From: Actinomycetospora lemnae
GTDB taxonomy: Bacteria; Actinomycetota; Actinomycetes; Mycobacteriales; Pseudonocardiaceae
Direction of reading: 5' to 3'
DNA length: 64,000 bases
Assembly (NCBI RefSeq): GCF_028737315.1
Contig: NZ_JAQZAO010000006.1
Location: 1-64,000, forward strand
Part shown: piece by piece, positions 1,804-55,635 of the stretch
How the letters are laid out: each line of letters starts with the position of its first letter
Numbering within the stretch: position 1 is the first letter of the stretch
The notes under the pieces: generated by a model
The model's input: the letters and a program-made list of their open reading frames with translations, nothing else
Told to the model about the DNA's origin: nothing
Databases searched by the model: none
Translations under genes and position numbers: made by a program

Positions 1804-4800
1804 GTGGGCACACGGGTCTTCCGGCGCGCCGCGCGCCTGGCGCCCCCCGAGGTGCCCTCGGGAGAGGTGCACCTCGAGGCGCCCCCGGACATCCCCCGCG
1901 CGGTGCCCACCTCGCCGCTGCTGCGCCTGTTGCCGCTGCTCATGGTGGTCGGCTCGCTCGGCTTCATCGTCGTCATCGGCGTCGACAACCCGACGTCGTG
2001 GCTCTTCGGCGGGATGTTCGCGCTCTCGACGCTCGGGATGGTCGCCGGTGGGGTGACGCGCGGCGGTGGTCAGCGCCGCGCCGAGGCCGACGAGGACCGC
2101 AAGGACTACCTGCGCTACCTCGCGCAGATGCGCCGCCGGGCCCGCGACACCGCGGTCGAGCAGCGGCGCGCCCTCGAGTGGACCCACCCCGATCCCTCGA
2201 CGCTCGTCGGGCTCGCCCGGGGCCCGCGGATGTGGGAGCGCCGGCCCGCGGACGCCGACTTCGTGCACGTGCGCGTCGGGCGCGGGTCCCAGCGCCTGGC
2301 GACGGCGCTCGTGCCCCCGCAGACCGGCCCGGTCGACGACCTGGAGCCGGTGTCGACGGTCGCGCTGCGCCGGTTCGTGCGCACCCACTCGATCGTCCCG
2401 GACCTGCCGACCGCGGTGTCGCTGCGCGCCTTCGTGTCGGTGGCGGTGGCCGGCGCCGACGCCGCGACCCGCCGCGGGCTCGTGCGGGCGCTCGTCGCCC
2501 AGCTCGTCACGTTCCACAGCCCGGACGACCTCGTCATCGCGGTCGCCGCCACCGGTCCGGCGCGCGCGGAGTGGGAGTGGGTGAAGTGGCTGCCCCACGT
2601 CGCGCACCCGCGCCTGACCGACGGTGCCGGGCCGGTGCGGATGGTGACGTCGTCGCTGGCGGCGATCGAGTCCTGGCTCGCCCCGGAGCTCGCGGGGCGG
2701 GCCCGGTTCGCCCGCGGCGCCGCGCCCGCCGCGGACACGCGCCACGTCGTCGTGGTGCTGGAGGACGCCGAGGTGACCGGCTCCGAGACACTCCTGCTCG
2801 AGGAGGGCCGCAGCGCGGTCACGGTGATCGACCTGTCGGACTCGCTCGGCACGCTGACCGCGCGGCGCGGGCTCGGGCTCGTCCTCGGGGAGGGCGGGGA
2901 GGACACGGGGGACGGCCGGATCGGCGCGGTGGGCCGGCAGGGCACGGAGTGGTTCGGGCGCCCCGACGTCCTCGGCGCGGCGGAGGCCGAGGCGCTGGCG
3001 CGGCGGCTCGCGCCGTGCCGCACCCCGGTGGTCGCGGGCGGCGAGGAGGAGCCGCTCCTCGCGAGCCCCGGCATCCTCGAGCTGCTCGGCGTCGACGGGG
3101 AGCCCGACACGTTCGACGTCGCCGCCGCGTGGCGCCCGCGCCCGCTGCGCGACCGGCTGCGCGTGCCGTTCGGGGTGTCGGCGGAGGGCGAGCCGGTCGA
3201 GCTCGACATCAAGGAGGCCGCGCAGGAGGGCATGGGCCCGCACGGGCTCTGCGTCGGCGCGACCGGGTCGGGGAAGTCGGAGCTGCTCCGGACCCTCGTC
3301 CTGGGCCTCATCACCACGCACTCGTCCGAGGCCCTCAACCTCGTCCTCGTCGACTTCAAGGGCGGCGCGACGTTCGCCGGGCTCGCGCCGGCCCCGCACG
3401 TCGCCGCCGTCATCACCAACCTCGCCGACGACCTGAGCCTCGTCGACCGCATGCAGGACGCGCTGGCGGGGGAGATGCAGCGCCGCCAGGAGCTGCTGCG
3501 CGCCGCGGGCAACCTCGCCAACGTCACCGAGTACGAGCGCGCCCGGGAGAACGGCGCGCCGCTCGAGCCGTTGCCGACGCTGTTCGTCGTCGTCGACGAG
3601 TTCTCGGAGCTGCTGAGCCAGAAGCCCGACTTCGCCGAGCTGTTCGTCGCCATCGGGCGGCTCGGGCGCTCGCTGCAGATGCACCTGCTGCTCGCCTCGC
3701 AGCGCCTCGAGGAGGGCCGGCTGCGGGGCCTGGACTCGCACCTGTCGTACCGGATCGGGCTCAAGACGTTCTCGGCGTCGGACTCCCGCGCGGTGCTCGG
3801 GGTCCCCGACGCCGCGGAGCTGCCGCCGGTGCCGGGCTCGGGCTACCTCAAGGTCGAGTCGTCGACGATGGTGCGGTTCAAGGCCGGCTACGTCTCCGCG
3901 CCGCACCGCACCGCCGAGCGCGTCGCTCCGGACCCCTCCCCGGTCGCGCGGGAGATGACGCCGCGTCCGTTCTCCGCGCGGTGGGTCGAGCCGGGGGAGA
4001 CGGTGCATCGAGGGGAGCACGCCGATGGGGGAGCTCGACCGTTGACTGCTGCGCCGACCGTGCTGGAGGGCGCGCCCCGGCCCGACGACCGCGCGCCCGC
4101 GGTCATCGGCCCGCACGGCCCGTCGGCCCCGCGGGGCACGGGCGGCGGGACGCCGTCGGTGCTCGACGTCGTCGTCGAACGGCTGCGGGGGCAGGGCCCG
4201 CCGGCGCACGAGGTGTGGCTGCCGCCGCTGGCCGACCCGGCGACGCTCGACGCCCTGCTCCCGCCGCTGACCGAGACCCCCGACCGCGGCCTGACCGCCC
4301 CCGGCTTCCCCGCGAACGGCACGCTGACGGTGCCCGTCGGCATCGTGGACCGCCCCTACGACCAGCGCCGCGACGTGCTGTGGGCCGAGCTCGCGGGGTC
4401 GGCAGGGCACGTCGTCGTCGCCGGCGGGCCGCAGTCGGGGAAGTCGACGCTGCTGCGCACGCTCGTCGCGGGCGCCGCGCTCACGCACACCCCGGCCGAG
4501 GTGCAGTTCTACGCGGTCGACCTGGGCGGCGGGACGCTCGCGGGTCTGGCCGGGCTGCCCCACGTCGGCGCGGTCGCCGGGCGCGGCGAGCCCGACCTCG
4601 TGCGTCGCACCGTGGCCGAGGTGGCCGCGCTGCTCGCGGCGCGGGAGCGGTGGTTCCGCGAGGCCGGGGTGGAGTCGATGGCCGACCTGCGCGCGCGGCG
4701 GAGACGGAGCAATGGGGGGAGCACGCCGACAGGGGAGCTCGACCATCTCCTCCGGCGACGGGGCGAGCTCACGCCCGGCACCGGCGGGAGCGACCTGCTC

Positions 4801-6003
4801 GGCGACGTCTTCCTCGTCGTCGACGGCTGGCACGCGTTCCGCAGCGAGCACGAGCAGCTCGAGCAGACGGTGATCTCGCTGGCGACGGCCGGGCTGTCGT
4901 ACGGCGTGCACGTCGTCATCACCGCCAGCCGGTGGGCCGAGCTGCGCCCGGCGCTGAAGGACCTGCTGGGTACGCGGTTCGAGCTGCGCCTCGGGGACCC
5001 GTCGGAGTCCGAGGTGGACCGCCGGACCGCGGCCGTCGTGCCCGCCGGGCGGCCGGGCCGCGGGCTGTCGCCGGACAAGCTGCACGTGCTCACCGCCCTG
5101 CCCCGCCTCGACGGGATCGCCGACGCGTCCGACCTGGGGCGCGCGACCTCCGAGCTCGTCGCCCGGGTCGCCGCCGCGTGGAGCGGTCCCGGCGCGCCGC
5201 GGGTGCGGCTGCTGCCCGAGCTCGTCGGGGTCGAGGCGCTGCCGGGTGCCGACGACGGGCCGCCGCACCTGCTGCCGCTGGGCCTGTCGGAGGACCGCCT
5301 GGCCCCGGTGCTGCTCGACGTCGCCGCCGACCCGCACTTCGTCTGCTATGCCGACGCCGAGTCCGGCAAGACGGCGCTGCTGCGGGGGCTGGCGCACCAG
5401 ATCGTCACCCGGTACCGCCCCGACCAGGCGCGCCTCATGATCGTCGATTACCGGCGCTCGCTGCTCGGGGCCGTCGCGAGCGACCACCTCATCTCCTACA
5501 CGTCCTCGGCGCCGGCCCTGACCGACGCGATGAGCGAGCTGGTCGGGTCGCTGCAGCGGCGCCTGCCCGGGCCCGACGTCACGCCCGAGCAGCTGCGGGC
5601 GCGCTCGTGGTGGACCGGGCCGGACGTGTTCGTCCTGGTCGACGACTACGACCTGGTCGCCGGCGCCGCCACCAACCCCCTCGCGGCGCTGCTCGACCTC
5701 CTCCCGCAGGCCCGCGACGTCGGGCTGCACCTGGTCGTCGCGCGGCGGACGGGCGGGGCGTCGCGGGCGGTGTTCGAGCCGGTCCTCGCCCGGCTGCGCG
5801 AGCTCTCCTCGCCGGGCATCGTCATGAGCGGCAGCCGCGACGAGGGCGTCCTGCTCGGCTCCGTGCGCCCGGGCCCGCAGCCGCCGGGGCGGGGCTGGCT
5901 CGTGGGCCGTCGTCACGGGGAGCGCCTCGTGCAGGTGGGGTGGCGCGCGCCCGACCCGCCGATCACCGGCCCGGCTCGTCCCGCCGGCCGCCCCGACCCG
6001 TGA
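1804..6003 (+). CDS. eccC: Type VII secretion FtsK/SpoIIIE ATPase EccC (fused EccCa-EccCb)
   Basis: EccC is the motor of the ESX secretion system and binds the C-terminal signals of Esx substrates. The 1,399-residue product starts GTRVFRRAARL, typical of EccC, has two membrane segments at about residues 39-60 and 66-84, then three FtsK-like ATPase domains with P-loops at about 485-492 (GATGSGKS), 874-881 (GGPQSGKS) and 1183-1190 (ADAESGKT). The first domain has a full Walker B (FVVVDEFSELL). GTG 1804 was preferred to upstream GTGs because it restores the family N terminus. Two copies of a 45-bp mini-repeat lie within it (residues about 731-746 and 966-981), the second inside ATPase domain 2. 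The stop overlaps the next gene (GTGA). Confidence 0.93.
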   Translation: MGTRVFRRAARLAPPEVPSGEVHLEAPPDIPRAVPTSPLLRLLPLLMVVGSLGFIVVIGVDNPTSWLFGGMFALSTLGMVAGGVTRGGGQRRAEADEDRKDYLRYLAQMRRRARDTAVEQRRALEWTHPDPSTLVGLARGPRMWERRPADADFVHVRVGRGSQRLATALVPPQTGPVDDLEPVSTVALRRFVRTHSIVPDLPTAVSLRAFVSVAVAGADAATRRGLVRALVAQLVTFHSPDDLVIAVAATGPARAEWEWVKWLPHVAHPRLTDGAGPVRMVTSSLAAIESWLAPELAGRARFARGAAPAADTRHVVVVLEDAEVTGSETLLLEEGRSAVTVIDLSDSLGTLTARRGLGLVLGEGGEDTGDGRIGAVGRQGTEWFGRPDVLGAAEAEALARRLAPCRTPVVAGGEEEPLLASPGILELLGVDGEPDTFDVAAAWRPRPLRDRLRVPFGVSAEGEPVELDIKEAAQEGMGPHGLCVGATGSGKSELLRTLVLGLITTHSSEALNLVLVDFKGGATFAGLAPAPHVAAVITNLADDLSLVDRMQDALAGEMQRRQELLRAAGNLANVTEYERARENGAPLEPLPTLFVVVDEFSELLSQKPDFAELFVAIGRLGRSLQMHLLLASQRLEEGRLRGLDSHLSYRIGLKTFSASDSRAVLGVPDAAELPPVPGSGYLKVESSTMVRFKAGYVSAPHRTAERVAPDPSPVAREMTPRPFSARWVEPGETVHRGEHADGGARPLTAAPTVLEGAPRPDDRAPAVIGPHGPSAPRGTGGGTPSVLDVVVERLRGQGPPAHEVWLPPLADPATLDALLPPLTETPDRGLTAPGFPANGTLTVPVGIVDRPYDQRRDVLWAELAGSAGHVVVAGGPQSGKSTLLRTLVAGAALTHTPAEVQFYAVDLGGGTLAGLAGLPHVGAVAGRGEPDLVRRTVAEVAALLAARERWFREAGVESMADLRARRRRSNGGSTPTGELDHLLRRRGELTPGTGGSDLLGDVFLVVDGWHAFRSEHEQLEQTVISLATAGLSYGVHVVITASRWAELRPALKDLLGTRFELRLGDPSESEVDRRTAAVVPAGRPGRGLSPDKLHVLTALPRLDGIADASDLGRATSELVARVAAAWSGPGAPRVRLLPELVGVEALPGADDGPPHLLPLGLSEDRLAPVLLDVAADPHFVCYADAESGKTALLRGLAHQIVTRYRPDQARLMIVDYRRSLLGAVASDHLISYTSSAPALTDAMSELVGSLQRRLPGPDVTPEQLRARSWWTGPDVFVLVDDYDLVAGAATNPLAALLDLLPQARDVGLHLVVARRTGGASRAVFEPVLARLRELSSPGIVMSGSRDEGVLLGSVRPGPQPPGRGWLVGRRHGERLVQVGWRAPDPPITGPARPAGRPDP
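3996..4040 (+). repeat. 45-bp dispersed mini-repeat, long form, copy in eccC linker
   Basis: The unit begins GGAGACGG and ends GAGCTCGACC, with two internal GGGGAGC boxes separated by ACGCCGATG. It is read here as ...ETVHRGEHADGGARP... and lies between the first and second ATPase domains of EccC, where sequence is not conserved. Other long copies are at 4700, 25431 and 54995 and a degenerate one at 54220; short forms are at 10168, 29809 and 50542. Confidence 0.85.
4700..4744 (+). repeat. 45-bp dispersed mini-repeat, long form, copy in EccC ATPase domain 2
   Basis: Same unit as at 3996 but read in another frame, giving RRRSNGGSTPTGELDH. It sits inside the second ATPase module, between the helix ending MADLRARRR and the strand leading to FLVVDGW. 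Its length keeps the reading frame. The same protein therefore carries one element translated in two different ways. Confidence 0.85.
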
Positions 6004-10162: not shown

Positions 10163-11589
10163 TGGTGGGAGACGCAGCGGAGCGGAGCTCGACCCGGCAG
10201 GGGAGCGACGCTCCTCGTCTCTTCGGCACCGACGGTGTCCGGGGCCTGGCCAACGGCGACCTCTCGCCCGAGCTGGCGACCGCCCTCGCGGCGGCGGCGG
10301 CGGGCGTGCTCGCGGAGCACGCCCGCGCCGACGGTCGTCGTGGCGAGGCCTCCCGACCGGTGGCGGTCGTGGGTCGTGACCCGCGGGCCAGCGGTGAGAT
10401 GCTCGAGGCCGCGGTCACCGCGGGCCTGAGCGCCGCGGGGGCCGACGTGCTGCGCGTCGGCGTGCTGCCGACGCCGGCGGTCGCGTTCCTGACCGGCGCG
10501 CTCGACGCCGATCTCGGCGTCATGATCTCGGCGTCGCACAACCCGATGCCCGACAACGGCATCAAGCTCTTCGCGGCCGGCGGGCACAAGCTGCCCGACG
10601 TCGTCGAGGACGAGATCGAGGCGCGCGTCCGCGAGGCCGACGGCTGCCCTCCCAGCGGCGCCGCCGCGCGGCCGACCGGGCGCGACATCGGCCGCGTCAC
10701 CGACGTGCCGAACGCACTCGACCGGTACGTCGAGCACCTGGCGGGCGCGACGCCGACCGCGCTGGACGGCCTGCACGTCGTCGTCGACTGCGCGCACGGC
10801 GCGGCGTCGGCCGCGGCGCCCCGGGCCTACGCGGCCGCGGGTGCCCGGGTGACGGCGCTGCACGCCGAGCCCGACGGCTGGAACATCAACGAGGGCGTGG
10901 GCTCCACGCACATCGACGCGCTCGCCCGCGCCGTGGTGGCCGAGGGCGCGGACCTCGGCATCGCGCACGACGGCGACGCCGACCGGTGCCTCGCGGTGGC
11001 CGCCGACGGCAGCGTCGTCGACGGCGACCAGATCCTCGCGGTGCTCGCCCTCGACATGCTCGAGCGCGGCGAGCTCGCCGACGCCACGCTGGTCGTCACG
11101 GTGATGAGCAACCTCGGCCTGCACCTCGCGATGGCCGACGCCGGGGTCGCCCTGCGCACCACGGCGGTCGGCGACCGCTACGTCCTCGAGGAGCTGCGGG
11201 CCGGCGGGTTCTCGCTCGGCGGCGAGCAGTCGGGGCACGTGGTGCTCCCCGCGCACGCCACCACCGGCGACGGGCTGCTCACGGCGCTGCGGCTCATGGC
11301 GCGCATGACGCAGACCGGGCGCGCGCTCGGCGACCTGGCGTCGGTGATGACGCGGCTGCCCCAGGTGCTGGTCAACGTGCCGGTCGCGGACAAGGCCGCG
11401 GTGGGCTCGTCGCCCGAGGTCGCCGACGCCGTCGCCGCCGCGGAGGCCGAGCTCGGCGGCAAGGGCCGGGTGCTGCTGCGCCCGTCGGGCACCGAGCAGC
11501 TCGTGCGGGTCATGGTCGAGGCGCCGACGCAGGTCGTGGCCGGCGAGGTCGCCGACCGCCTGGCGGGCCTCGTCTCCACCGTGCGCTGA
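10162..11589 (+). CDS. glmM: Phosphoglucosamine mutase
   Basis: Converts glucosamine-6-phosphate to glucosamine-1-phosphate for UDP-GlcNAc and peptidoglycan. The 475-residue enzyme shows [14 protein letters not shown], the phosphoserine loop [13 protein letters not shown], the metal loop DGDADR and the phosphate-binding [15 protein letters not shown] 10162 overlaps the rpsI stop (TGATG). Relatives begin only a few residues before [10 protein letters not shown]; here about 18 extra residues precede it, and residues 3-11 are coded by the 27-bp mini-repeat. The first step of the pathway, glmS, lies downstream. Confidence 0.96.
10168..10194 (+). repeat. 27-bp short form of the dispersed mini-repeat at the glmM 5' end
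   Basis: Begins GGAGACGCAGC and ends GCGGAGCTCGACC. It codes GDAAERSST at the very start of GlmM, ahead of the conserved domain. It differs from the long form by loss of 18 bp between the two GGGGAGC-like boxes. Confidence 0.8.
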
Positions 11590-19782: not shown

Positions 19783-20291
19783 TGGCGGCCGACGTCGTCA
19801 CCGAGCGGCGCGTGCTCCTGCCCACCGCCGCGGACACCACCGAGCTCGGGCGCGCCATCGGCGCGCGGCTCGCGCCCGGCGACCTCGTCGTCCTCGCCGG
19901 CCCGCTGGGGGCCGGCAAGACCTGCCTCGCGGCGGGCATCGGCGAGGGGCTCGGCGTCGAGGGGCCGATCACGTCGCCGACGTTCGTCATCGCCCGCGAG
20001 CACCCGCCGCTGCCCGACGCCCTCGGCGGGCGCGGGGTCGTGCTCGTGCACGTCGACGCCTACCGGCTCGGCGTCGGGACCGGCGACCCGGACCCGCGCG
20101 AGGTCGCCGCCCAGCTCGACGACCTCGACCTCGACACCGACCTCACCCGCGCCGCCGTCGTGGTCGAGTGGGGCGAGGGCGTCGCCGAGCACCTCGCGAG
20201 CGAGCACCTCCTCGTCCGTCTCGACCGGTCCGAGGCCGACGAGACCCGCGAGGCGCACCTGCACGGACCCGCACGGTTGGTCGCTCCGTAG
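19782..20291 (+). CDS. tsaE: tRNA t6A biosynthesis ATPase TsaE
   Basis: TsaE is the small ATPase that works with TsaB and TsaD to place threonylcarbamoyl on A37 of tRNAs. The 169-residue product has the P-loop AGPLGAGKT, the ITSPTFVIAREH motif, HVDAYRL and VVVEWGEGVAE. ATG 19782 overlaps the preceding stop (TGATG). Its own stop codon TAG forms part of a -10-like box for tsaB. Confidence 0.95.
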   Translation: MAADVVTERRVLLPTAADTTELGRAIGARLAPGDLVVLAGPLGAGKTCLAAGIGEGLGVEGPITSPTFVIAREHPPLPDALGGRGVVLVHVDAYRLGVGTGDPDPREVAAQLDDLDLDTDLTRAAVVVEWGEGVAEHLASEHLLVRLDRSEADETREAHLHGPARLVAP

Positions 20292-20294
20292 GGT
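20289..20294 (+). promoter_or_regulatory. Putative leaderless promoter of tsaB
   Basis: TAGGGT overlaps the tsaE stop codon and ends 7 nt before the tsaB GTG. No ribosome site precedes that GTG, so a second, leaderless transcript starting at tsaB is plausible. Confidence 0.4.
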
Positions 20295-20301
20295 CGGGCC
20301 C

Positions 20302-21093
20302 GTGCTCGTCCTGGCCCTCGACACCGCCACCGCCCGGATCACCGCCGGCGTGGTCGAGCTCGACCCGAGCGAGGGCCCCCCGACGACCCTCGCCGCCCGC
20401 GACGCCGAGGGCGCCCGCGCGCACGCCGAGCTGCTGGCGCCCGCCGTCGCCGAGGCCCTGGCGGAGGCCGGGCGCACGCGCGCCGACCTCGACGCGGTGG
20501 TCGCCGGGCTCGGTCCCGGACCGTTCACCGGGCTGCGGGTCGGGCTCGTCACCGCCGCGGCCGTGGGCGACGCGCTGGGCATCCCGGTGCACGGCGTGCC
20601 GACCCACGACGCGCTGGCCGCCGGCTCCGCTCCGCTCCGCGTCCCGGACGACGGGTCCGGCTCCGCTCCGCTCCGCGTCCCGGACGACGGGTCCGGCTCC
20701 GCTCCGCTCCGCGTCCCGGACGACGGGTCCGGCTCCGCTCCGCTCCGCGTCCTGGTGGTGACCGACGCCCGCCGCCGCGAGGTCTACTGGAGCCTGCTGG
20801 TCGACGGCGTGCGCACGCACGGCCCCGACGTGGTCGCGCCCGCCGAGCTCGCCGCGCGCCTCGCTCCGGACGGCGACCTGGGCCCCGTCGACCGGGTCCT
20901 CGGTGACGCCGCCGCCCAGGTGGGCGCCGGAACGGCGGAGACAACGGCGCTCGGCCCCACCCCTGAGGGCCTGGTCGCCGTCGCAGCGCCGGCCCTGCGG
21001 GCAGGCACCGACCCGGGCCCGCTCGTGCCGCTCTACCTGCGCCGCCCCGACGCCGTCCCGCCCGGGGCGCCGAAGGCCGTGACACGCGGATGA
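20302..21093 (+). CDS. tsaB: tRNA t6A biosynthesis protein TsaB with internal tandem repeat
   Basis: TsaB is the dimerisation partner of TsaD in t6A synthesis. The 263-residue protein begins LVLALDTATARITAGVVEL and has the family motif VVAGLGPGPFTGLRVGLVTA. Between THDALAAGSA and VVTDARRREVYWSL lie three identical 12-residue units (GSAPLRVPDDGS) plus a partial fourth, residues about 108-150. TsaB proteins normally run straight through here. Whether the insert disturbs the TsaB-TsaD interface cannot be told from sequence; the frame is intact. Confidence 0.93.
   Translation: MLVLALDTATARITAGVVELDPSEGPPTTLAARDAEGARAHAELLAPAVAEALAEAGRTRADLDAVVAGLGPGPFTGLRVGLVTAAAVGDALGIPVHGVPTHDALAAGSAPLRVPDDGSGSAPLRVPDDGSGSAPLRVPDDGSGSAPLRVLVVTDARRREVYWSLLVDGVRTHGPDVVAPAELAARLAPDGDLGPVDRVLGDAAAQVGAGTAETTALGPTPEGLVAVAAPALRAGTDPGPLVPLYLRRPDAVPPGAPKAVTRG
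20623..20752 (+). repeat. Perfect 36-bp tandem repeat inside tsaB (3.6 units)
   Basis: Units start at 20623, 20659 and 20695, with a 22-bp partial unit from 20731; the copies are identical. Each begins GGCTCCGCTCCGCTCCGCG. The reverse complement contains the GGAGCGGAGCGGAGC core of the dispersed 27-bp mini-repeat, followed by CGGACC, so this array probably arose from a copy inserted in the opposite direction. Confidence 0.9.
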
Positions 21094-21118
21094 CCACGCG
21101 GATGACCACGCGGATGAC
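21083..21118 (+). repeat. Tandem 12-bp repeat at the tsaB-rimI junction
   Basis: Three copies of CACGCGGATGAC span the end of tsaB and the gap before rimI. The first supplies the tsaB stop codon; each copy repeats an ATGA that looks like a stop/start overlap. Confidence 0.75.
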
Positions 21119-21124
21119 ACGGCC

Positions 21125-21601
21125 GTGAGCGCCGTCGTCCTCGACGCGCTGACCCCGGACGACGCCGACCGCTGCGCCGAGCTCGAGGCGATCCTCTTCC
21201 CCGGTGACGACCCCTGGAGCGCCCGGGCGTTCCGCACCGAGCTGCGCGCCGGTCACCACTACCTCGCCGCGCGGGACGCGGGCGAGCTCGTCGGCTACGG
21301 CGGCATCGCCCTCATGCCCGGGCGGCTCGGCCAGCAGGCGGAGGCGGAGATCCACACGATCGGCGTCGACCCCGCCCACCAGGGCCGGGGGATCGGGCGC
21401 GCGCTGCTCGCCGGCCTGCTCGCCGCGGCCGACGCGATCGGGGCGACGACGTTCCTCGAGGTCCGCGTCGACAACGAGGCCGCGCTGGGCCTCTACCGCG
21501 GCACCGGCTTCGCCGTCCTCGGCACGCGGCGGCGCTACTACGCCTCGGGCGCGGACGCGTTCACCATGCGCCGCGACCCGCCTGCTCGCGACCCTCGTTG
21601 A
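21125..21601 (+). CDS. rimI: Ribosomal-protein S18-alanine N-acetyltransferase (GNAT)
   Basis: RimI acetylates the N-terminal alanine of S18. The 158-residue GNAT protein has ELVGYGGIAL, the acetyl-CoA motif IGVDPAHQGRGIGRALL and the NEAALGLYRGTGF region. The GTG start at 21125 has no strong ribosome site and follows the 12-bp tandem repeats. It belongs to the tsaE-tsaB-rimI group; tsaD, which usually follows, is absent. Confidence 0.9.
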   Translation: MSAVVLDALTPDDADRCAELEAILFPGDDPWSARAFRTELRAGHHYLAARDAGELVGYGGIALMPGRLGQQAEAEIHTIGVDPAHQGRGIGRALLAGLLAAADAIGATTFLEVRVDNEAALGLYRGTGFAVLGTRRRYYASGADAFTMRRDPPARDPR

Positions 21602-25430: not shown

Positions 25431-25475
25431 GGAGACGGGGTATCAGGGGGAGCACGCCGACGGGGGAGCTCGACC
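25431..25475 (+). repeat. 45-bp mini-repeat, long form, intergenic copy
   Basis: A full-length copy (GGAGACGG ... GAGCTCGACC) in the 266-bp gap between the BldM-like gene and the sigma factor gene. It lies upstream of the sigma factor's likely start, so here it is probably untranslated. The rest of the gap shows only the promoter at 25615. Confidence 0.8.
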
Positions 25476-29283: not shown

Positions 29284-30456
29284 GTGCGCGAGCAGGTCGA
29301 GATCGGGCGGGGCCGCAGCGCCCAGCGCAGCTACGTCTTCGACGACCTCGACATCGTCCCGTCGCGGCGGACCCGGTCGTCGTCGGCGGTGTCGACGGCC
29401 TGGCAGCTCGACGCCTACCGCTTCGAGCTGCCGCTGCTGACCCACCCGACCGACGCCGTCGTCAGCCCGACCACGGCGGCGCGGGTCGGCGAGCTCGGAG
29501 GCCTCGGGGTGCTCAACGCCGAGGGCCTCTGGGCGCGGCACGCCGAGGCCGAGAAGGCGCTGGCCGAGGTCGCGGCGCGCGCCGCGGTCGACCCGGCCGA
29601 GGCCGTCGCGGAGCTGCAGCGCCTGCACGCCGCGCCCGTCCAGGCGTCGCTGGTCACCGAGGCGCTCGAGCGCGTCCGCGCGGCCGGGGCCACCGTCGCC
29701 GCCCGCGTCAGCCCCCAGCACGCCCGGGAGCTGACGCCGACCCTGCTCGCCGCCGGCGTCGAGGTGCTGGTGGTGCAGGGGACGATCATCTCGGCGGAGC
29801 ACGTGTCGGGAGACGGAGCGGAGCGGAGCTCGACCCCGGGCGTGGGCGGCGAGGCGGAGGCCGAGGGCCCGCTGGACCTCGAGGACTTCATCGAGTCGCT
29901 CGACATCCCCGTCGTCGCCGGCGGGGTGGGCGACTACCGCACGGCGATGCACCTCATGCGCACCGGCGCGGCCGGCGTCATCGTCGGCTACGGGCAGTCC
30001 ACGGCGACGTCCACCGACTCGGTGCTGGGCATCGGGGTACCGATGGCCACCGCGCTCGTCGACGCCGCCGCCGCGCGCCGCGACTACCTCGACGAGACCG
30101 GCGGGCGCTACGTCCACGTCATCGCCGACGGTGCGATGAGCACGTCGGGCGACATCGCCAAGGCCATCGCCTGCGGGGCCGACGCGGTGATGCTCGGCGA
30201 GCAGCTCGCGGCGGCCGAGGAGGCCCCGGGCGGCGGCTGGTACTGGACGCCGGCCGCGGCCCACCCGTCGCTGCCCCGCAGCGGCATCAGCCGCGTGCCG
30301 ACGGTGGCGCCGGACCTCGCCACCGTGCTCACCGGCCCCGCCCGCTCCGGTGCCGGCACGATGAACCTGTTCGGCGCGCTGCGCCGCGCGATGGCCAAGA
30401 CCGGCTACTCGGACCTCAAGGAGTTCCAGCGGGTGGGGCTGTCCGTCCGGCGCTGA
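29284..30456 (+). CDS. guaB3: GuaB3 family IMP dehydrogenase-like protein
   Basis: A 390-residue IMPDH/GMPR-type TIM barrel without CBS domains, regularly found after guaB in actinobacteria (Rv3410c). It starts VEIGRGRSAQRSYVFDDLDIVPSRR and contains VIADGAMSTSGDIAKAIACGADAVMLG. The IMPDH catalytic GSICTTR loop is absent; the equivalent stretch reads VIVGYGQSTATSTDSVLG. Residues about 176-195 hold a low-complexity insert whose first nine residues come from the 27-bp mini-repeat. Catalytic role is uncertain. Confidence 0.9.
   Translation: MREQVEIGRGRSAQRSYVFDDLDIVPSRRTRSSSAVSTAWQLDAYRFELPLLTHPTDAVVSPTTAARVGELGGLGVLNAEGLWARHAEAEKALAEVAARAAVDPAEAVAELQRLHAAPVQASLVTEALERVRAAGATVAARVSPQHARELTPTLLAAGVEVLVVQGTIISAEHVSGDGAERSSTPGVGGEAEAEGPLDLEDFIESLDIPVVAGGVGDYRTAMHLMRTGAAGVIVGYGQSTATSTDSVLGIGVPMATALVDAAAARRDYLDETGGRYVHVIADGAMSTSGDIAKAIACGADAVMLGEQLAAAEEAPGGGWYWTPAAAHPSLPRSGISRVPTVAPDLATVLTGPARSGAGTMNLFGALRRAMAKTGYSDLKEFQRVGLSVRR
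29809..29835 (+). repeat. 27-bp short form of the mini-repeat inside guaB3
   Basis: Reads GDGAERSST in the same frame as the copy in glmM. It lies in a loop between EHVS and EGPLDLEDFIESL, where relatives have only a few residues. Confidence 0.85.
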
Positions 30457-48778: not shown

Positions 48779-49738
48779 ATGCGGACGATCGGCCTGGAAG
48801 AGCACTTCGTGACCCCGGAGCTCGCCCCGTACGGCAAGGGAACGGCGACGATCGCGGAGCCCCACGTGTGGGAGGAGATGTCGCGCCGGCTCCTCGACCT
48901 CACGGGCGCTCGCCTCGAGCGCATGGACGCCGCCGGGCTCGACGTCCAGGTGCTCTCGCTGAACTCGCCGGGGCTGCAGGCCGAGCCGGACGCCGCGCTC
49001 GCCGTCTCCCGCGCCGCCGCGGTCAACGACCTGCTCGCCGCGACGATCGAGGCGCACCCGATCCGCTTCGCCGGGTTCGCCGCGCTGCCGCTGCAGGACC
49101 CGCAGGCCGCGGCCAAGGAGCTCGAGCGCTCGGTGACCCAGCTCGGGCTGCGCGGGGCGCTGGTCAACGCGCACACCCACGGCCGCTACCTCGACGACCC
49201 CGAGCTGCGGGTGGTCTGGGAGTACGCGCAGGGCCTCGACGTGCCGCTCTACCTGCACCCGGCGAACGGGGTCGACACCGCCCACGTGCTCTCGGGCCAC
49301 CCCGAGCTGATCGGGCCGATGTGGAGCTGGGGCACGGACACCGCGTCCCACGCCCTGCGGCTGGTCTTCGCCGGCGTGTTCGACGACTTCCCCGAGGCGA
49401 AGCTGCTGCTCGGGCACATGGGCGAGGCGTTGCCGTTCGTGCTGTGGCGCCTCGACTCGCGCTGGGACTTCCACGCCCACCACGGCATCGAGCTCGCCCG
49501 CGGCCGGCCGTCGGAGTACCTGCGGCACAACCTCTACATCACGACCAGCGGCGTCTGCTCGGCCGCGCCGCTGCTGTGCTCGCTGCTCGCGCTGGGGTCC
49601 GACCACATCCTCTTCGGCACCGACTACCCCTTCGAGGAGATGGACGTCGCCACCGAGTTCCTGCGTACCGCCCCGATCAGCGAGGCCGACCGGGAGAAGA
49701 TCGCGCACGGCAACGCCGAGCGGCTGCTGCGCCTGTGA
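48779..49738 (+). CDS. tsdA: Gamma-resorcylate (2,6-dihydroxybenzoate) decarboxylase
   Basis: A non-oxidative decarboxylase of the amidohydrolase superfamily that turns gamma-resorcylate into resorcinol. The 319-residue product starts MRTIGLEEHFVTPEL; E7 and H9, H160 (LYLHPANG), H213 (LLLGHMGEALPF) and D282 (LFGTDYPFE) correspond to metal ligands and catalytic residues of known decarboxylases. It begins the plus-strand operon and its stop overlaps the dioxygenase start (GTGA). A closely related dihydroxybenzoate could be the true substrate. Confidence 0.87.
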   Translation: MRTIGLEEHFVTPELAPYGKGTATIAEPHVWEEMSRRLLDLTGARLERMDAAGLDVQVLSLNSPGLQAEPDAALAVSRAAAVNDLLAATIEAHPIRFAGFAALPLQDPQAAAKELERSVTQLGLRGALVNAHTHGRYLDDPELRVVWEYAQGLDVPLYLHPANGVDTAHVLSGHPELIGPMWSWGTDTASHALRLVFAGVFDDFPEAKLLLGHMGEALPFVLWRLDSRWDFHAHHGIELARGRPSEYLRHNLYITTSGVCSAAPLLCSLLALGSDHILFGTDYPFEEMDVATEFLRTAPISEADREKIAHGNAERLLRL

Positions 49739-50643
49739 GCCCCGCCGACTCACTGACCGACTCGCTGACCGACTCGCTGACCGACGAGGTGCTGGCGAGC
49801 TTCGCGACGACCCCCGACGCGCGGCTGCGCACGGTCCTCGAGCGCGTCGTCGTGCACCTGCACGAGCTGGTCCGCGAGGTGGAGCCGACCGTCGCGGAGT
49901 GGGAGGCCGCGATCGGGTTCCTCACCGCCGTCGGCGCCACCTGCGACGACACCCGCCAGGAGTTCATCCTCCTGTCGGACGTGCTCGGGGTGTCGTCGCT
50001 GGTGGAGACGGTGAACGGCTCGGGGGAGGGCACCGAGAGCACCGTCCTCGGCCCGTTCCACATGACCGCGTCCCCGCCGCGCGAGCTCGGCGACAGCATC
50101 GACGACCTGGGCGGCGGCCGGCGGGCGCTCGTCACCGGCCGGGTCGTCGACCCCGCCGGGGACCCGGTGCCGGGCGCGGCGATCGACGTCTGGCAGTGCA
50201 CCGAGGACGGCTTCTACGACGTCCAGCAGCCGGAGCGGCAGCCCGCGGGCAACGGGCGCGGGCTCTTCCGCGCCGACGAGCGCGGCCGGTTCCGCTTCCG
50301 GACCGTCGTGCCGGGCCACTACCCGATCCCGACCGACGGACCGGTGGGCGCGCTGCTGGGGGTCACCCGACGGCACCCCTACCGTCCCGCCCACGTGCAC
50401 CTCCTCGTCAGCGCCCCCGGGTTCGCGACGCTGACGACGCACCTGTTCGTCCGGGGCAGCCCCTACCTCGACGAGGACGCGGTGTTCGCGGTGAAGGAGG
50501 GGCTGGTGGTCGACTTCGCGGAGGTGGACGCCGCGGTGGGCGGAGACGGAGCGCAGGGGAGCTCGACCACGGAGGACGGCATGGACCGGCCGTACCGGCA
50601 CGCCGACGTCGAGATCGTCCTCGTCCCCGCGGTCGTACCGTGA
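49735..50643 (+). CDS. tsdC: Hydroxyquinol 1,2-dioxygenase (intradiol)
   Basis: Cleaves hydroxyquinol (1,2,4-trihydroxybenzene) to maleylacetate. The 302-residue intradiol enzyme has the N-terminal dimerisation domain (RLRTVLERVVVHLHELV) and the Fe(III) ligands Y161 (EDGFYDVQ), Y196 (PGHYPIPTDGP), H220 and H222 (RPAHVHLLV), numbered almost as in known hydroxyquinol dioxygenases. The start has three DSLT repeats, and residues about 270-278 come from the 27-bp mini-repeat. GTG 49735 overlaps tsdA; the stop overlaps the reductase. Confidence 0.88.
   Translation: MSPADSLTDSLTDSLTDEVLASFATTPDARLRTVLERVVVHLHELVREVEPTVAEWEAAIGFLTAVGATCDDTRQEFILLSDVLGVSSLVETVNGSGEGTESTVLGPFHMTASPPRELGDSIDDLGGGRRALVTGRVVDPAGDPVPGAAIDVWQCTEDGFYDVQQPERQPAGNGRGLFRADERGRFRFRTVVPGHYPIPTDGPVGALLGVTRRHPYRPAHVHLLVSAPGFATLTTHLFVRGSPYLDEDAVFAVKEGLVVDFAEVDAAVGGDGAQGSSTTEDGMDRPYRHADVEIVLVPAVVP
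49747..49782 (+). repeat. Tandem 12-bp repeat at the dioxygenase 5' end
   Basis: Three units of GACTCGCTGACC (the first has one silent change) code DSLTDSLTDSLT before the conserved domain. Confidence 0.85.
50542..50568 (+). repeat. 27-bp short form of the mini-repeat inside the dioxygenase gene
   Basis: Codes GDGAQGSST in the same frame as the copies in glmM and guaB3. It lies in a loop before the last strand (RPYRHADVEIVLVP), just ahead of the C terminus. Confidence 0.85.
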
Positions 50644-53587: not shown

Positions 53588-54973
53588 TCACACCAGCTCG
53601 GAGTCCCGCACCTTCTGCATCCCGCGGGCCATGCGGCGCTTGGCCGGCGGGATGCGGTCGACGACCCGCATGCCCGTGCGCTGCGCCATCACCGACAGCG
53701 GCCCGATCACCGGACGGCGCGCGGTGCCGTTGTCGTTCATGAACTCCAGGGACTCGCGCACGGCGAGGGCCGCGTAGCGGCGCATGAGCTCCTCGTACTC
53801 GCCGACGCCCTCGAGCAGCGAGAGCTCGCCGTCGCGCACGCGGACGAGCCGGTCGCGCAGCTCGCGGGCGTCGCGCAGCGCGGTGTTCGCGCCGGCCCCG
53901 CGCCCCGGGGTCATGGTGTGGATCGCGTCGCCGACCATCGTCACCGTGCTCGGCGTCCACGCCGGCACGGGGTCGGAGGTGCGGATGCTCAGCGCGACCG
54001 TCGAGCCCGGGTCGGCCGTCGCGACGAGGTCGAGCCAGCGGGGGTCCCAGCCCTCGCTCAGGTCGCCCGCCAGGGCGAGGGCGTCGCTGCCGGTGCGCTC
54101 GAGGAGATCGGGCGGCGCGATCGTGCGCGACGTGGTGATGGCCCAGGAGATGTAGTCGGTGGTGTTGTCGAAGCGCAGGCCCGGGTGGCGGGCGACGAGC
54201 TCCTCGTCGCTCGTCGAAGGGTCCGGCTCCCCTGTCGGCGTGCTCCTCTGAACGCCTCGTGCCCCGGCGCTGCCCCACGGCATCCGCATCACGTGCGTGA
54301 TCCCGAACTGGCCGCGGCGGTCGAAGTACATCCCGAAGCCGTGACGCACCTGCTCGGGCAGGAGGCGCTCGGACCGCTCGGTGAGCAGCGTCTTGCCGCC
54401 GATGGCGACGAGCCCGGTCTCGGTGTGCGTCGCGTGCGGCAGGTACTGCTGCCGCACGCGGGAGCTCGCCCCGTCCGCGCCGACGAGCAGGTCGCCGGTG
54501 TCGCTGCTGCCGTCCTCGAAGTACGCGGTCACCCGCCCGTCGGGGTGCTGCTCGTAGTGCGTGAACCGGCGGTCGAACGTGATCACGTCCTCCATGCCCG
54601 TGAACAGCACCTGGCGCAGCGTCATGCGGCTGACGTTGTGCTCCCTGTCCTCGGCGGCACGGCCCTCGGGGTCGCCGCTCGCGTGGGGGAGGTCGGCGAA
54701 GTCGATGCTGATCAGCGGGCGGTACCGCTCGGTGAGCATCGCGAGCTTCGTGTACGGCGCCGCGGTGGTCGCGACGAACGTCGCGAAGAGCTCCGGGTCC
54801 AGGCAGGCCTTGAGCGCCCGGGCGCCGTTGGGCGAGATGCCGACGCGATAGCCGTGCAGGCCGCTCGTGCGGGTGCGGTCGCGCTCGTGGACGGCGACGT
54901 CGATGCCGGCGCGGCGCAGGCCGTGCGCGAGACACATCCCGCCGGTGCCGGCGCCGATGATGATCACCTTCAT
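53588..54973 (-). CDS. FAD-dependent monooxygenase of the PHBH fold
   Basis: A 461-residue flavoprotein: KVIIIGAGTGGMCLAHGLRRAG at the start (GxGxxG), LLVGADGASSRVRQQYLP (DG motif) and VTMVGDAIHTMTPGRGAGANTALRDA (GD motif). ATG 54973 overlaps the PadR stop (ATGA), so the two form an operon under PadR control. Residues about 237-251 (RGVQRSTPTGEPDPS) are coded by a degenerate mini-repeat. Such PadR-linked hydroxylases often act on antibiotics or phenols; no substrate can be named. Confidence 0.87.
   Translation of the reverse strand: MKVIIIGAGTGGMCLAHGLRRAGIDVAVHERDRTRTSGLHGYRVGISPNGARALKACLDPELFATFVATTAAPYTKLAMLTERYRPLISIDFADLPHASGDPEGRAAEDREHNVSRMTLRQVLFTGMEDVITFDRRFTHYEQHPDGRVTAYFEDGSSDTGDLLVGADGASSRVRQQYLPHATHTETGLVAIGGKTLLTERSERLLPEQVRHGFGMYFDRRGQFGITHVMRMPWGSAGARGVQRSTPTGEPDPSTSDEELVARHPGLRFDNTTDYISWAITTSRTIAPPDLLERTGSDALALAGDLSEGWDPRWLDLVATADPGSTVALSIRTSDPVPAWTPSTVTMVGDAIHTMTPGRGAGANTALRDARELRDRLVRVRDGELSLLEGVGEYEELMRRYAALAVRESLEFMNDNGTARRPVIGPLSVMAQRTGMRVVDRIPPAKRRMARGMQKVRDSELV
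54220..54264 (-). repeat. Mini-repeat, degenerate long copy in the flavin monooxygenase gene
   Basis: On the minus strand the part AGGAGCACGCCGACAGGGGAGC is well kept at its core and is followed by CGGACC; the 5' third has diverged. Read RSTPTGEPDP, in the same frame as the second copy in eccC. Confidence 0.7.
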
Positions 54974-55635
54974 GGTGGGTCCTCTCCCTCGACGGGTCGA
55001 GCTCCCCTGTCGGCGTGCTCCCCCCATCGCTGTGTCTCCCCGCGGGCGGTGCGCCGCGCGATGTCGAGCAGGTGGTCCTGGTTCCAGGTCAGGGCGCCGG
55101 AGCGGAGGTCGTCGAGGAGCGCGCCGATCCAGGCGACGTCGGTCTCGAGGTGCGCGAGCGCGTACTCCGCCTCGACGAGCACGATCCGCGGGAGCGTGCC
55201 GCCGACGTGCTGGAGCTCGCGGCGCAGCCGGTCGCGCTCGCCGCGGCGGTCCGACAGGCGCAGGGCCAGCGCGTCGGCGGCGACCTCGGGCTCGAGCAGC
55301 GGGAGGTAGGCGAGCGCGGCGGTGAACTCGGCGAACTCGTGGCGGGGCGCGGTGAGCATGTCGAGGGTCCAGGTGACCGCGAGCTCGCGCCCGGCGTCGG
55401 TGACCGCGTAGACCGTGCGCTCCGGGCGCGCGGACTCCCGCTCGGTGCCCTGCGCGACCAGCAGCCCGTCGCGCACGAGGCGGTCGATCGTCTTGTAGAG
55501 CTGCGAGCGCTGGCCGACGTTGACCACCTGGTCCTTGCCGCGCTCCCGGATGAGCTGCTGCATCCGGTACGGGTGCATGGGCTCCTCCGCGGCGAGGGCG
55601 AGGACGGCGAGGGCGAGGCCGGAGCGCTGAGTCAT
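54970..55635 (-). CDS. PadR-family transcriptional regulator
   Basis: A 221-residue PadR protein: N-terminal winged helix (ALAVLALAAEEPMHPYRMQQLIRERG, GQRSQLYKTIDRLVRDGLL) and a C-terminal helical dimer domain. ATG 55635 is chosen because the family starts here and because an upstream in-frame reading would run through the operator and promoter. The last residues, WGEHADRGARP, are coded by a 45-bp mini-repeat, so the natural C terminus has been replaced or extended. The stop overlaps the monooxygenase start. Confidence 0.88.
   Translation of the reverse strand: MTQRSGLALAVLALAAEEPMHPYRMQQLIRERGKDQVVNVGQRSQLYKTIDRLVRDGLLVAQGTERESARPERTVYAVTDAGRELAVTWTLDMLTAPRHEFAEFTAALAYLPLLEPEVAADALALRLSDRRGERDRLRRELQHVGGTLPRIVLVEAEYALAHLETDVAWIGALLDDLRSGALTWNQDHLLDIARRTARGETQRWGEHADRGARPVEGEDPP
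54995..55039 (-). repeat. 45-bp mini-repeat, long form, at the PadR 3' end
   Basis: Complete copy in the coding direction of the PadR gene, translated ETQRWGEHADRGARP in the same frame as the first eccC copy. It lies 7 codons before the stop. Confidence 0.85.

Follow-up and report, generated by a model that had tools for sequence, protein, structure and literature searches.

REP and REPIN elements are short non-autonomous repeats that occur in hundreds of copies, together with RAYT transposases. Mycobacterial interspersed repetitive units (MIRUs), reportedly described by Supply et al. in 1997, have a unit size of roughly 46 to 101 bp. To our knowledge, how MIRU-type repeats spread is an open question, and we know of no enzyme that mobilizes either the MIRU or the element of Actinomycetospora considered here. 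MIRUs are short dispersed units of stop-start junctions that are oriented with the genes, occur in tandem and have a Shine-Dalgarno-like 3' end ahead of the next start. A 2025 review describes them as seemingly mobile, with insertion at start codons (PMC12548453). Rickettsia palindromic elements, in the extract of a second source, are selfish repeats of about 150 bp that contain an open reading frame for a conserved peptide and lie in frame in many unrelated genes (PMC10969869).

The window analyzed in this study is a stretch of 64,000 nucleotides from Actinomycetospora lemnae, in which a preliminary description had reported a 45-bp unit, in two copies in eccC and in one each in an intergenic site, in a flavin monooxygenase gene and where a padR-like gene ends, as well as a 27-bp form in glmM, guaB3 and a dioxygenase gene. 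All of these copies are present (Table 1), and the identities of EccC, GlmM and GuaB3 are confirmed by NCBIfam matches above the cut-offs. The array in tsaB is a sister variant that was absent from that description. The four clear long copies carry GGAGAC close to one terminus, with GGGGAGCTCGACC at the opposite one; the fifth, at 54220, is degenerate. The genes, which cover 94% of the window, were taken from our own codon-based caller, and their start positions are therefore approximate.

Table 1. Copies of the element in the window
Feature	Position	Strand	Remark
Long copy in eccC (1804-6003)	3996-4040	+	reads GETVHRGEHADGGARP
Long copy in eccC	4700-4744	+	reads RRRSNGGSTPTGELD; net insert 54 nt
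Short copy, rpsI-glmM junction	10168-10194	+	supplies N-terminus of GlmM (13 residues)
Tandem array, period 36, short form of CG/CG end type, in tsaB (20302-21093)	20621-20752	-	antisense to tsaB; 27-mers at 20654, 20690 and 20726
Long copy between two co-directional genes	25431-25475	+	67 nt past upstream stop
Short copy in guaB3 (29284-30456)	29809-29835	+	reads GDGAERSST
Short copy near 3' end of intradiol dioxygenase gene (49735-50643)	50542-50568	+	
Degenerate long copy in flavin monooxygenase gene (53588-54973)	54220-54264	-	
Long copy, 3' end of padR-like gene (54970-55635)	54995-55039	-	reads GETQRWGEHADRGARP

The unit had been held to be open in all six frames; this applies to six of the eight window copies checked, and the sense frames are open in all eight. 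A TGA interrupts one reverse frame in the intergenic copy and in the flavin monooxygenase copy, and a TAG occurs in one sense frame of the genus-wide long consensus, CCGATAGGGG, and of those short copies in which position 8 is T. All three sense frames are indeed used, since GEHADGGARP, STPTGELD and GDGAERSST are readings of like DNA in different frames.

The 27-bp form, GGAGACGNAGCGNNGNGGAGCTCGACC, is the main family, and the 45-bp unit is its rarer long form. With up to 3 mismatches, the genome of origin (6,064,868 bases) carries 184 copies of the 27-bp form (control 0) and 18 copies of the long core (reversed-pattern control 0), and 100 dinucleotide shuffles of the window contained no long-form match at the same threshold. 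An excess over chance, which had been set beforehand as a test of the repeat, was thus found, with copy numbers far above the zero controls. Both forms share the 5' end GGAGACGNAGC and the 3' end GGAGCTCGACC and differ in their middles, where the long form has 18 bp extra. Within the 27-mer, only positions 4, 5, 8, 13, 14, 22 and 23 vary appreciably. Among the matches listed, which are not a random draw, we counted 229 loci, with identical flanks and arrays each counted once; 198 of these are single copies with a near-identical 27-mer or long core, and the other 31 are tandem arrays of 2 to 5 copies with a period of 33 to 39, mostly 36, and array-specific spacers. No Rfam RNA family matched the window above its gathering score, no exact match of the element was found in viral contigs, and one 131-base array had no match in plasmids. 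Six 13-mers of the element were not found in the text of 5.39 million papers, a collection outside which a printed mention may exist, and the literature on repeats or insertions in Actinomycetospora, judged by title, held nothing related.

The element is genus-wide in Actinomycetospora, is also present in Williamsia and is rare in Mycobacterium. The long form was found in 18 of 18 Actinomycetospora genomes and in none of 43 others (up to 3 mismatches; one control match, in G011), with a single copy each in G005 and G006, and a pattern scan found the short form in all 18 genomes of the genus. Copy numbers obtained with one and the same short-form pattern were 154 in the genome of origin, 118 in G011 and 2 in G005, despite 93% identity over 2.5 kb between G005 and the genome of origin. 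G014, G003 and G010 also count among the element-rich genomes of the genus, as opposed to G005, G017, G002 and G006. At least 108 stretches contain the exact 27-mer, and the 80 of them that were listed come from Actinomycetospora, Williamsia and a single Mycobacterium, M. pinniadriaticum. When one mismatch was allowed, the 27-mer was found in 4 of 397 genomes of the order, namely two of Actinomycetospora and two of another genus with a single copy each (G123 and G165), and an order-wide search with 3 mismatches gave 19 further genomes with matches against 17 control matches.

Syntenic stretches of 17 genomes of the genus were aligned at the sites of the window, and the orthologous sites in related species were mostly empty. 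The site of the copy at 4700 in eccC is empty in 12 of the 14 other species aligned: the anchors are 131 nt apart in the genome of origin and in G011 (long form, +54) and 113 nt apart in G006 (short form, +36), compared with 77 nt in five empty species and 62 to 98 nt in seven more distant ones. The site at 3996 is empty in eight of the nine other species aligned and holds a short form in G006; its surroundings vary, and of the total difference of 63 nt from G005, 54 were assigned to the element by eye. At the rpsI-glmM junction, 11 of the 15 other species aligned have a plain spacing of 53 nt and three have elements, the lengths relative to the plain junction being +48 in the genome of origin, +39 in G010, +54 in G011, +36 in G012 and +12 in G005; the 12-nt stretch of G005 may be the leftover of a deleted copy. 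In tsaB, the site near 20377 is enlarged by 36 nt in G011 and by 57 nt in G012 over an empty length of 48 nt, and that at 20621 by 111 nt in the genome of origin and by 54 nt in G017 over an empty length of 90 nt, with six of the seven other species aligned being element-free. At these five sites in eccC, glmM and tsaB, all insert lengths are multiples of three. The gene upstream of tsaB has a short copy in two species (+42 in G010 and +59 in G008); the latter length is not a multiple of three, the stretch compared there crosses the gene end, and the gene stays open in both species.

The cleanest inserts are 36 or 54 nt long and consist of a conserved part of 27 or 45 bases and of 9 further bases that differ from site to site. 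Recurring 9-nt linkers, which would fit an origin from the donor, are few (ATCGAGACC in three loci and TCGACACCG in four). The copies in the intradiol dioxygenase and flavin monooxygenase genes are absent from the related locus L188, and the best solved relatives of GuaB3 and EccC, 2qr6 and 4nh0, are without inserts, with gaps at the guaB3 copy and at the copy at 4700 in eccC. A comparison with orthologues had been suggested for the host proteins; within the scope of most of the genus species aligned and of 2qr6 and 4nh0, the peptide is missing at the same place. Pairwise comparison of other loci gave more empty sites, including one between M. pinniadriaticum and Williamsia; some pairs had a copy in common, and some alignments were too diverged to be read. 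No target duplication stands out among 156 solo copies, of which one has exact flanking 4-mers and one exact flanking 6-mers. The flanks show increased identity at 9 and 12 nt (z of 4.1 and 3.6; 156 solo copies), which we read as codon rhythm, and because the identity climbs only in this three-base rhythm, the idea of a target duplication was dropped.

Long and short forms were found to occupy the same site in different species. At 4700 in eccC, ATCTCCTCCG follows the element in all three species that have it, long in the genome of origin and in G011 and short in G006. Near 20377 in tsaB, G011 has a short and G012 a long copy, both antisense and with similar flanks. At 20621 in tsaB an array of short copies in the genome of origin corresponds to a long copy in G017, and at 3996 in eccC the genome of origin has the long and G006 the short form, with different linkers. 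Since the linker is common at two of these four sites, a single insertion whose middle was later exchanged between the long and short versions is suggested.

Of the 229 loci, 132 lie in genes, 94 are intergenic and 3 have no gene on one side. The repeat is thus found inside genes, as in the preliminary description, but the 45-bp unit emphasized there is not the main form, and the intergenic loci are numerous. That description had also noted that the element runs in the coding direction; this holds for 112 of the 132 in-gene loci, the other 20 being antisense (p of about 1e-16 if the loci are independent). The intergenic loci comprise 61 sense and 15 antisense copies between co-directional genes, 17 between divergent genes and 1 between convergent genes. 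Among the 61 junction copies in sense, 34 begin 0 to 9 nt after the stop codon. The in-gene sense loci are likewise concentrated near gene ends: of 112, 33 lie no more than 60 nt from the stop and 15 no more than 60 nt from the start, compared with about 7 each if placement were uniform; the 64 interior ones are distributed over the three frames as 36, 14 and 14. Considering that 35 of the 208 orientable loci are antisense, we suggest that selection is more likely than a strand-specific insertion step to have produced the orientation bias. On the complete chromosome of G003, no replication polarity was found with array neighbors left out, the best two-arc agreement being 65% (84 positions), which was matched by 17% of shuffles, and the GC skew is too weak for placing the origin.

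An ATG lies immediately 3' of the element in 13 of the 229 loci, compared with no more than 4 for each of the remaining offsets up to 19, and in this arrangement a GGAG is placed 7 nt ahead of the start. GTG shows no such peak (7 of 229 loci right after the element, but 13 at offset 1 and 16 at offset 9), and the start of the downstream sense gene is 0 to 4 nt away in only 15 of the 78 intergenic loci that have such a gene. A role as a ribosome-binding site could therefore hold for a minority of the loci.

The outer bases of the 27-mer covary. Positions 4-5 and 22-23 read GA/TC in 259, CG/CG in 24, CA/TG in 15 and GG/CC in 3 of 329 copies with up to 3 mismatches and are non-complementary in 28, in counts that include subfamilies and array members and are not independent events. 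Ends other than GA/TC without any further mismatch occur in 34 short copies, of which 31 are complementary, whereas shuffles averaged 16.0 and reached 25 at most; these 34 copies represent 17 distinct sequences, 15 of them complementary. When the match was relaxed by one or two mismatches, the non-GA/TC short copies with complementary ends numbered 35 of 44 and 36 of 60. A genus scan with C fixed at position 4 and positions 22-23 left free gave 18 complementary copies out of 23 perfect matches (counted by eye among the matches listed, from 4 of 18 genomes), and 8 of 13 non-GA/TC long copies with at most 1 mismatch are complementary (by eye; one out of register). Compared as terminal inverted repeats, the ends match imperfectly, GGA-XX-CG against GGTC-XX-GC, with XX as the covarying dinucleotide. 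The covariation leads us to infer that the two ends are read together, either as a single folded strand or as an inverted protein site offset by one base.

A stable hairpin by standard energy rules was considered and dropped, as the 27-mer folds no better than its shuffles under standard DNA or RNA parameters (z-scores of -1.3 to 1.1 for the 27-mer and the long form); folding of the long form is slightly better, with 19 and 31 of 200 shuffles equally good. Position 10 is mutated in 10 copies of the genus, with a matching change at position 16 in only 3. GC-GNA-GC is a DNA mini-hairpin motif of extraordinary stability, and as a model, the single-stranded 27-mer can be drawn by hand with a GC-GNA-GC tip and sheared G-A pairs, leaving the two free N positions unpaired. 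Because standard folding is unremarkable, the folded-strand reading rests on the covariation and on these hand-drawn non-standard pairs.

For the observed copy excess, empty sites, use of three frames, orientation, enrichment near stops and starts, covariation and arrays, the explanation that we favor, and consider fairly probable, is one small dispersed element that is likely MIRU-like, non-autonomous and mobile and that is moved by a putative enzyme reading both ends together. Mobility itself, as opposed to inheritance followed by loss, is part of what this explanation proposes. The putative enzyme would act in trans, and the covarying ends would either base-pair within one strand or make up an inverted site for a protein. 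Selection acting once the element is inserted would be the main influence on its orientation and place. The 3' end GGAGCTCGACC could serve as a ribosome-binding site at a junction, with its GGAG 7 nt ahead of a directly adjoining ATG; inside a gene, the nearly stop-free sense strand would encode a hydrophilic loop peptide, and only inserts in multiples of three would survive. The exchange of long and short forms next to a common linker is not accounted for by this mobile-element model.

We also weighed a MITE-like origin of the short and long forms from an ordinary insertion sequence, in which both would be deletion products that keep the termini of a longer, autonomous transposon. The ends common to both forms, with different middles between them, and the inverted, covarying dinucleotide near these ends agree with such an origin, but the scarcity of exact flanking repeats of 4 or 6 bases (1 of 156 solo copies each) does not, nor does the spacing of the ends in 2.2 Mb of partly overlapping loci representing part of the genomes, where 247 pairs of ends are separated by 22 to 63 bp and the 2 widely separated pairs look like chance. 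A search for longer autonomous copies with the same ends gave none that was convincing in those 2.2 Mb, and we regard the MITE-like origin as unlikely. It is very improbable that the copies are REP- or REPIN-type elements mobilized by a RAYT (Y1) transposase: their high number, shortness and lack of genes would suit this type, and a hairpin of the GCGNAGC type could form on the single strand, whereas Y1_Tnp (PF01797) was found in 0 of 18 genus genomes against 5 of 14 control genomes, a stable palindrome is missing, and more than half of the loci (132 of 229) are inside genes. As far as Pfam reaches, a RAYT is disfavored.

A functional DNA motif for replication polarity, recombination or chromosome organization could also have spread under selection, its insertion being incidental. 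The near-invariance of the 27-mer and its presence in all 18 genomes of the genus would be expected of such a motif, but the lack of replication polarity on G003 and the 2 copies in G005 against 154 in a genome that is 93% identical over 2.5 kb make us consider this quite improbable. Slippage that expands minisatellites locally, without any mobility, is hardly credible as a general explanation. The arrays of 2 to 5 copies, with a period of 33 to 39, mostly 36, and array-specific spacers, are in its favor; however, since 198 of the 229 loci hold one copy each, with an almost identical 27-mer or long core, and the orthologous sites are mostly empty, slippage accounts for the arrays only.

Actinomycetospora offers soil actinomycetes, not known to be pathogens, in which near relatives have from few to hundreds of copies, with clean empty sites and measurable inserts. 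The spread in copy number, the empty sites, the insert lengths, the covarying ends and the two forms per site therefore make the insertion chemistry, the ends and the enzyme directly testable. The peptide inserts in the conserved proteins GlmM, GuaB3, TsaB and EccC form a natural set that shows the tolerance of such proteins.

The mycobacterial repeat used for comparison, GACGATGCAGAGCGAAGCGATG, is presumably part of the MIRU, and the mycobacterial loci compared here are taken to be MIRUs by their position rather than by annotation. With up to 2 mismatches, the repeat occurs in 19 of 40 genomes of one genus, which we took as Mycobacterium from this repeat. Among the matches listed, all four bases occur at the N of GCGNAGC, and both matched changes (AACGAAGT, GTGAAAC and ATCGCGAAGCGAT) and unmatched changes (GAGGGAAGC and GAACGAAGC) were seen, uncounted. 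Of 28 mycobacterial loci, 21 are co-directional, intergenic and in sense, 4 are in genes and in sense, 2 are divergent and 1 is antisense, and most copies among the matches listed run into AGGAGGAGCGGCGC ahead of the next start. A published table gives rep-PCR primer 3 of M. intracellulare, a repeat-derived typing primer, as CGACGATGCAGAGCGAAGCGATG (PMC10117815). This primer contains GACGATGCAGAGCGAAGCGATG, the core of the mycobacterial repeat used here.

The comparison with Rickettsia palindromic elements made in the preliminary description is apt for the in-frame life inside genes, but not for size or structure, as the Actinomycetospora element measures 27 or 45 bp and folds about as its shuffles do. 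Moreover, Rickettsia palindromic elements carry a conserved peptide, whereas the Actinomycetospora element yields different peptides from three frames. REP and REPIN elements resemble it in the high number of short non-autonomous copies and differ from it in that it has no Y1 match, no stable palindrome and a mostly intragenic location. The likeness to the MIRU extends to the core AGCGNAGCG with its free N, the direction relative to genes, the arrays, the ribosome-site-like 3' end and, for part of the loci, the junction habit. Only this core is common in sequence, and the outer bases differ; the Actinomycetospora element is 27 or 45 bp long (36 or 54 inserted), compared with a mycobacterial tandem period of about 51 to 54 bp, has 132 of 229 loci inside genes and in any frame, and on its side shows end-covarying subfamilies and the long/short exchange. 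We raise tentatively, as possible rather than probable, that MIRUs and the units of Actinomycetospora and Williamsia form one superfamily of minimal mobile elements in Mycobacteriales, which would share the GCGNAGC mini-hairpin, jointly read ends and one enzyme class, and in which life inside genes in any frame and the in-place exchange of the middle (27 versus 45 bp) would have been gained in Actinomycetospora. Because the core, direction, arrays, 3' end and, in part, the junction habit are common to both but the length, outer sequence and in-gene life differ, the Actinomycetospora element works like a MIRU and is not classed as one, and the MIRU is a closer relative in design than the Rickettsia palindromic elements.

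The stretch of window 20200-21150, which covers tsaB together with the last part of the gene upstream of it, is an insertion hot spot for the element. In this region, six of the aligned Actinomycetospora genomes (A. lemnae, G008, G010, G011, G012, and G017) hold copies, some long and some short, some in sense and some in antisense orientation. Elements lie there at four different places within about 1 kb. The tsaB stop of A. lemnae carries perfect copies of a 12-mer, and in G008 and G012 this junction is occupied by elements instead. Within the dioxygenase gene, another 12-bp repeat at its start translates to LTDSLTDSLTD.

Repeats and element copies at the loci compared.
Feature	Position	Location or host
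12-mer CACGCGGATGAC, three perfect copies	window 21083-21118	at tsaB stop
12-bp repeat, 3.4 copies	window 49745-49785	start of dioxygenase gene
Exact 27-mer	L102:1417-1443 and L138:5735-5761	M. pinniadriaticum and a Williamsia
Mycobacterial repeat, variant CATCGCGAAGCGATG, three tandem copies	G240:C1:4332496-4332625	among matches listed

The closest relative of A. lemnae at glmM, G005 (locus L252, 93% identity), is nearly devoid of the element, with two copies in the 27-mer pattern scan, and its glmM holds a 12-nt remainder; it looks as if this genome had lost its copies.

Beyond the genus, pairwise locus comparison placed the 27-mer of M. pinniadriaticum and Williamsia at different positions in a related gene, each copy being absent from the other genome. 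This patchy host range hints that the 27-mer has spread laterally. As for the mycobacterial repeat, the variant in G240, a genome taken for Mycobacterium, converts the tip to a stem in which all six pairs are perfect, a hint of selection for the hairpin in these tandem copies.
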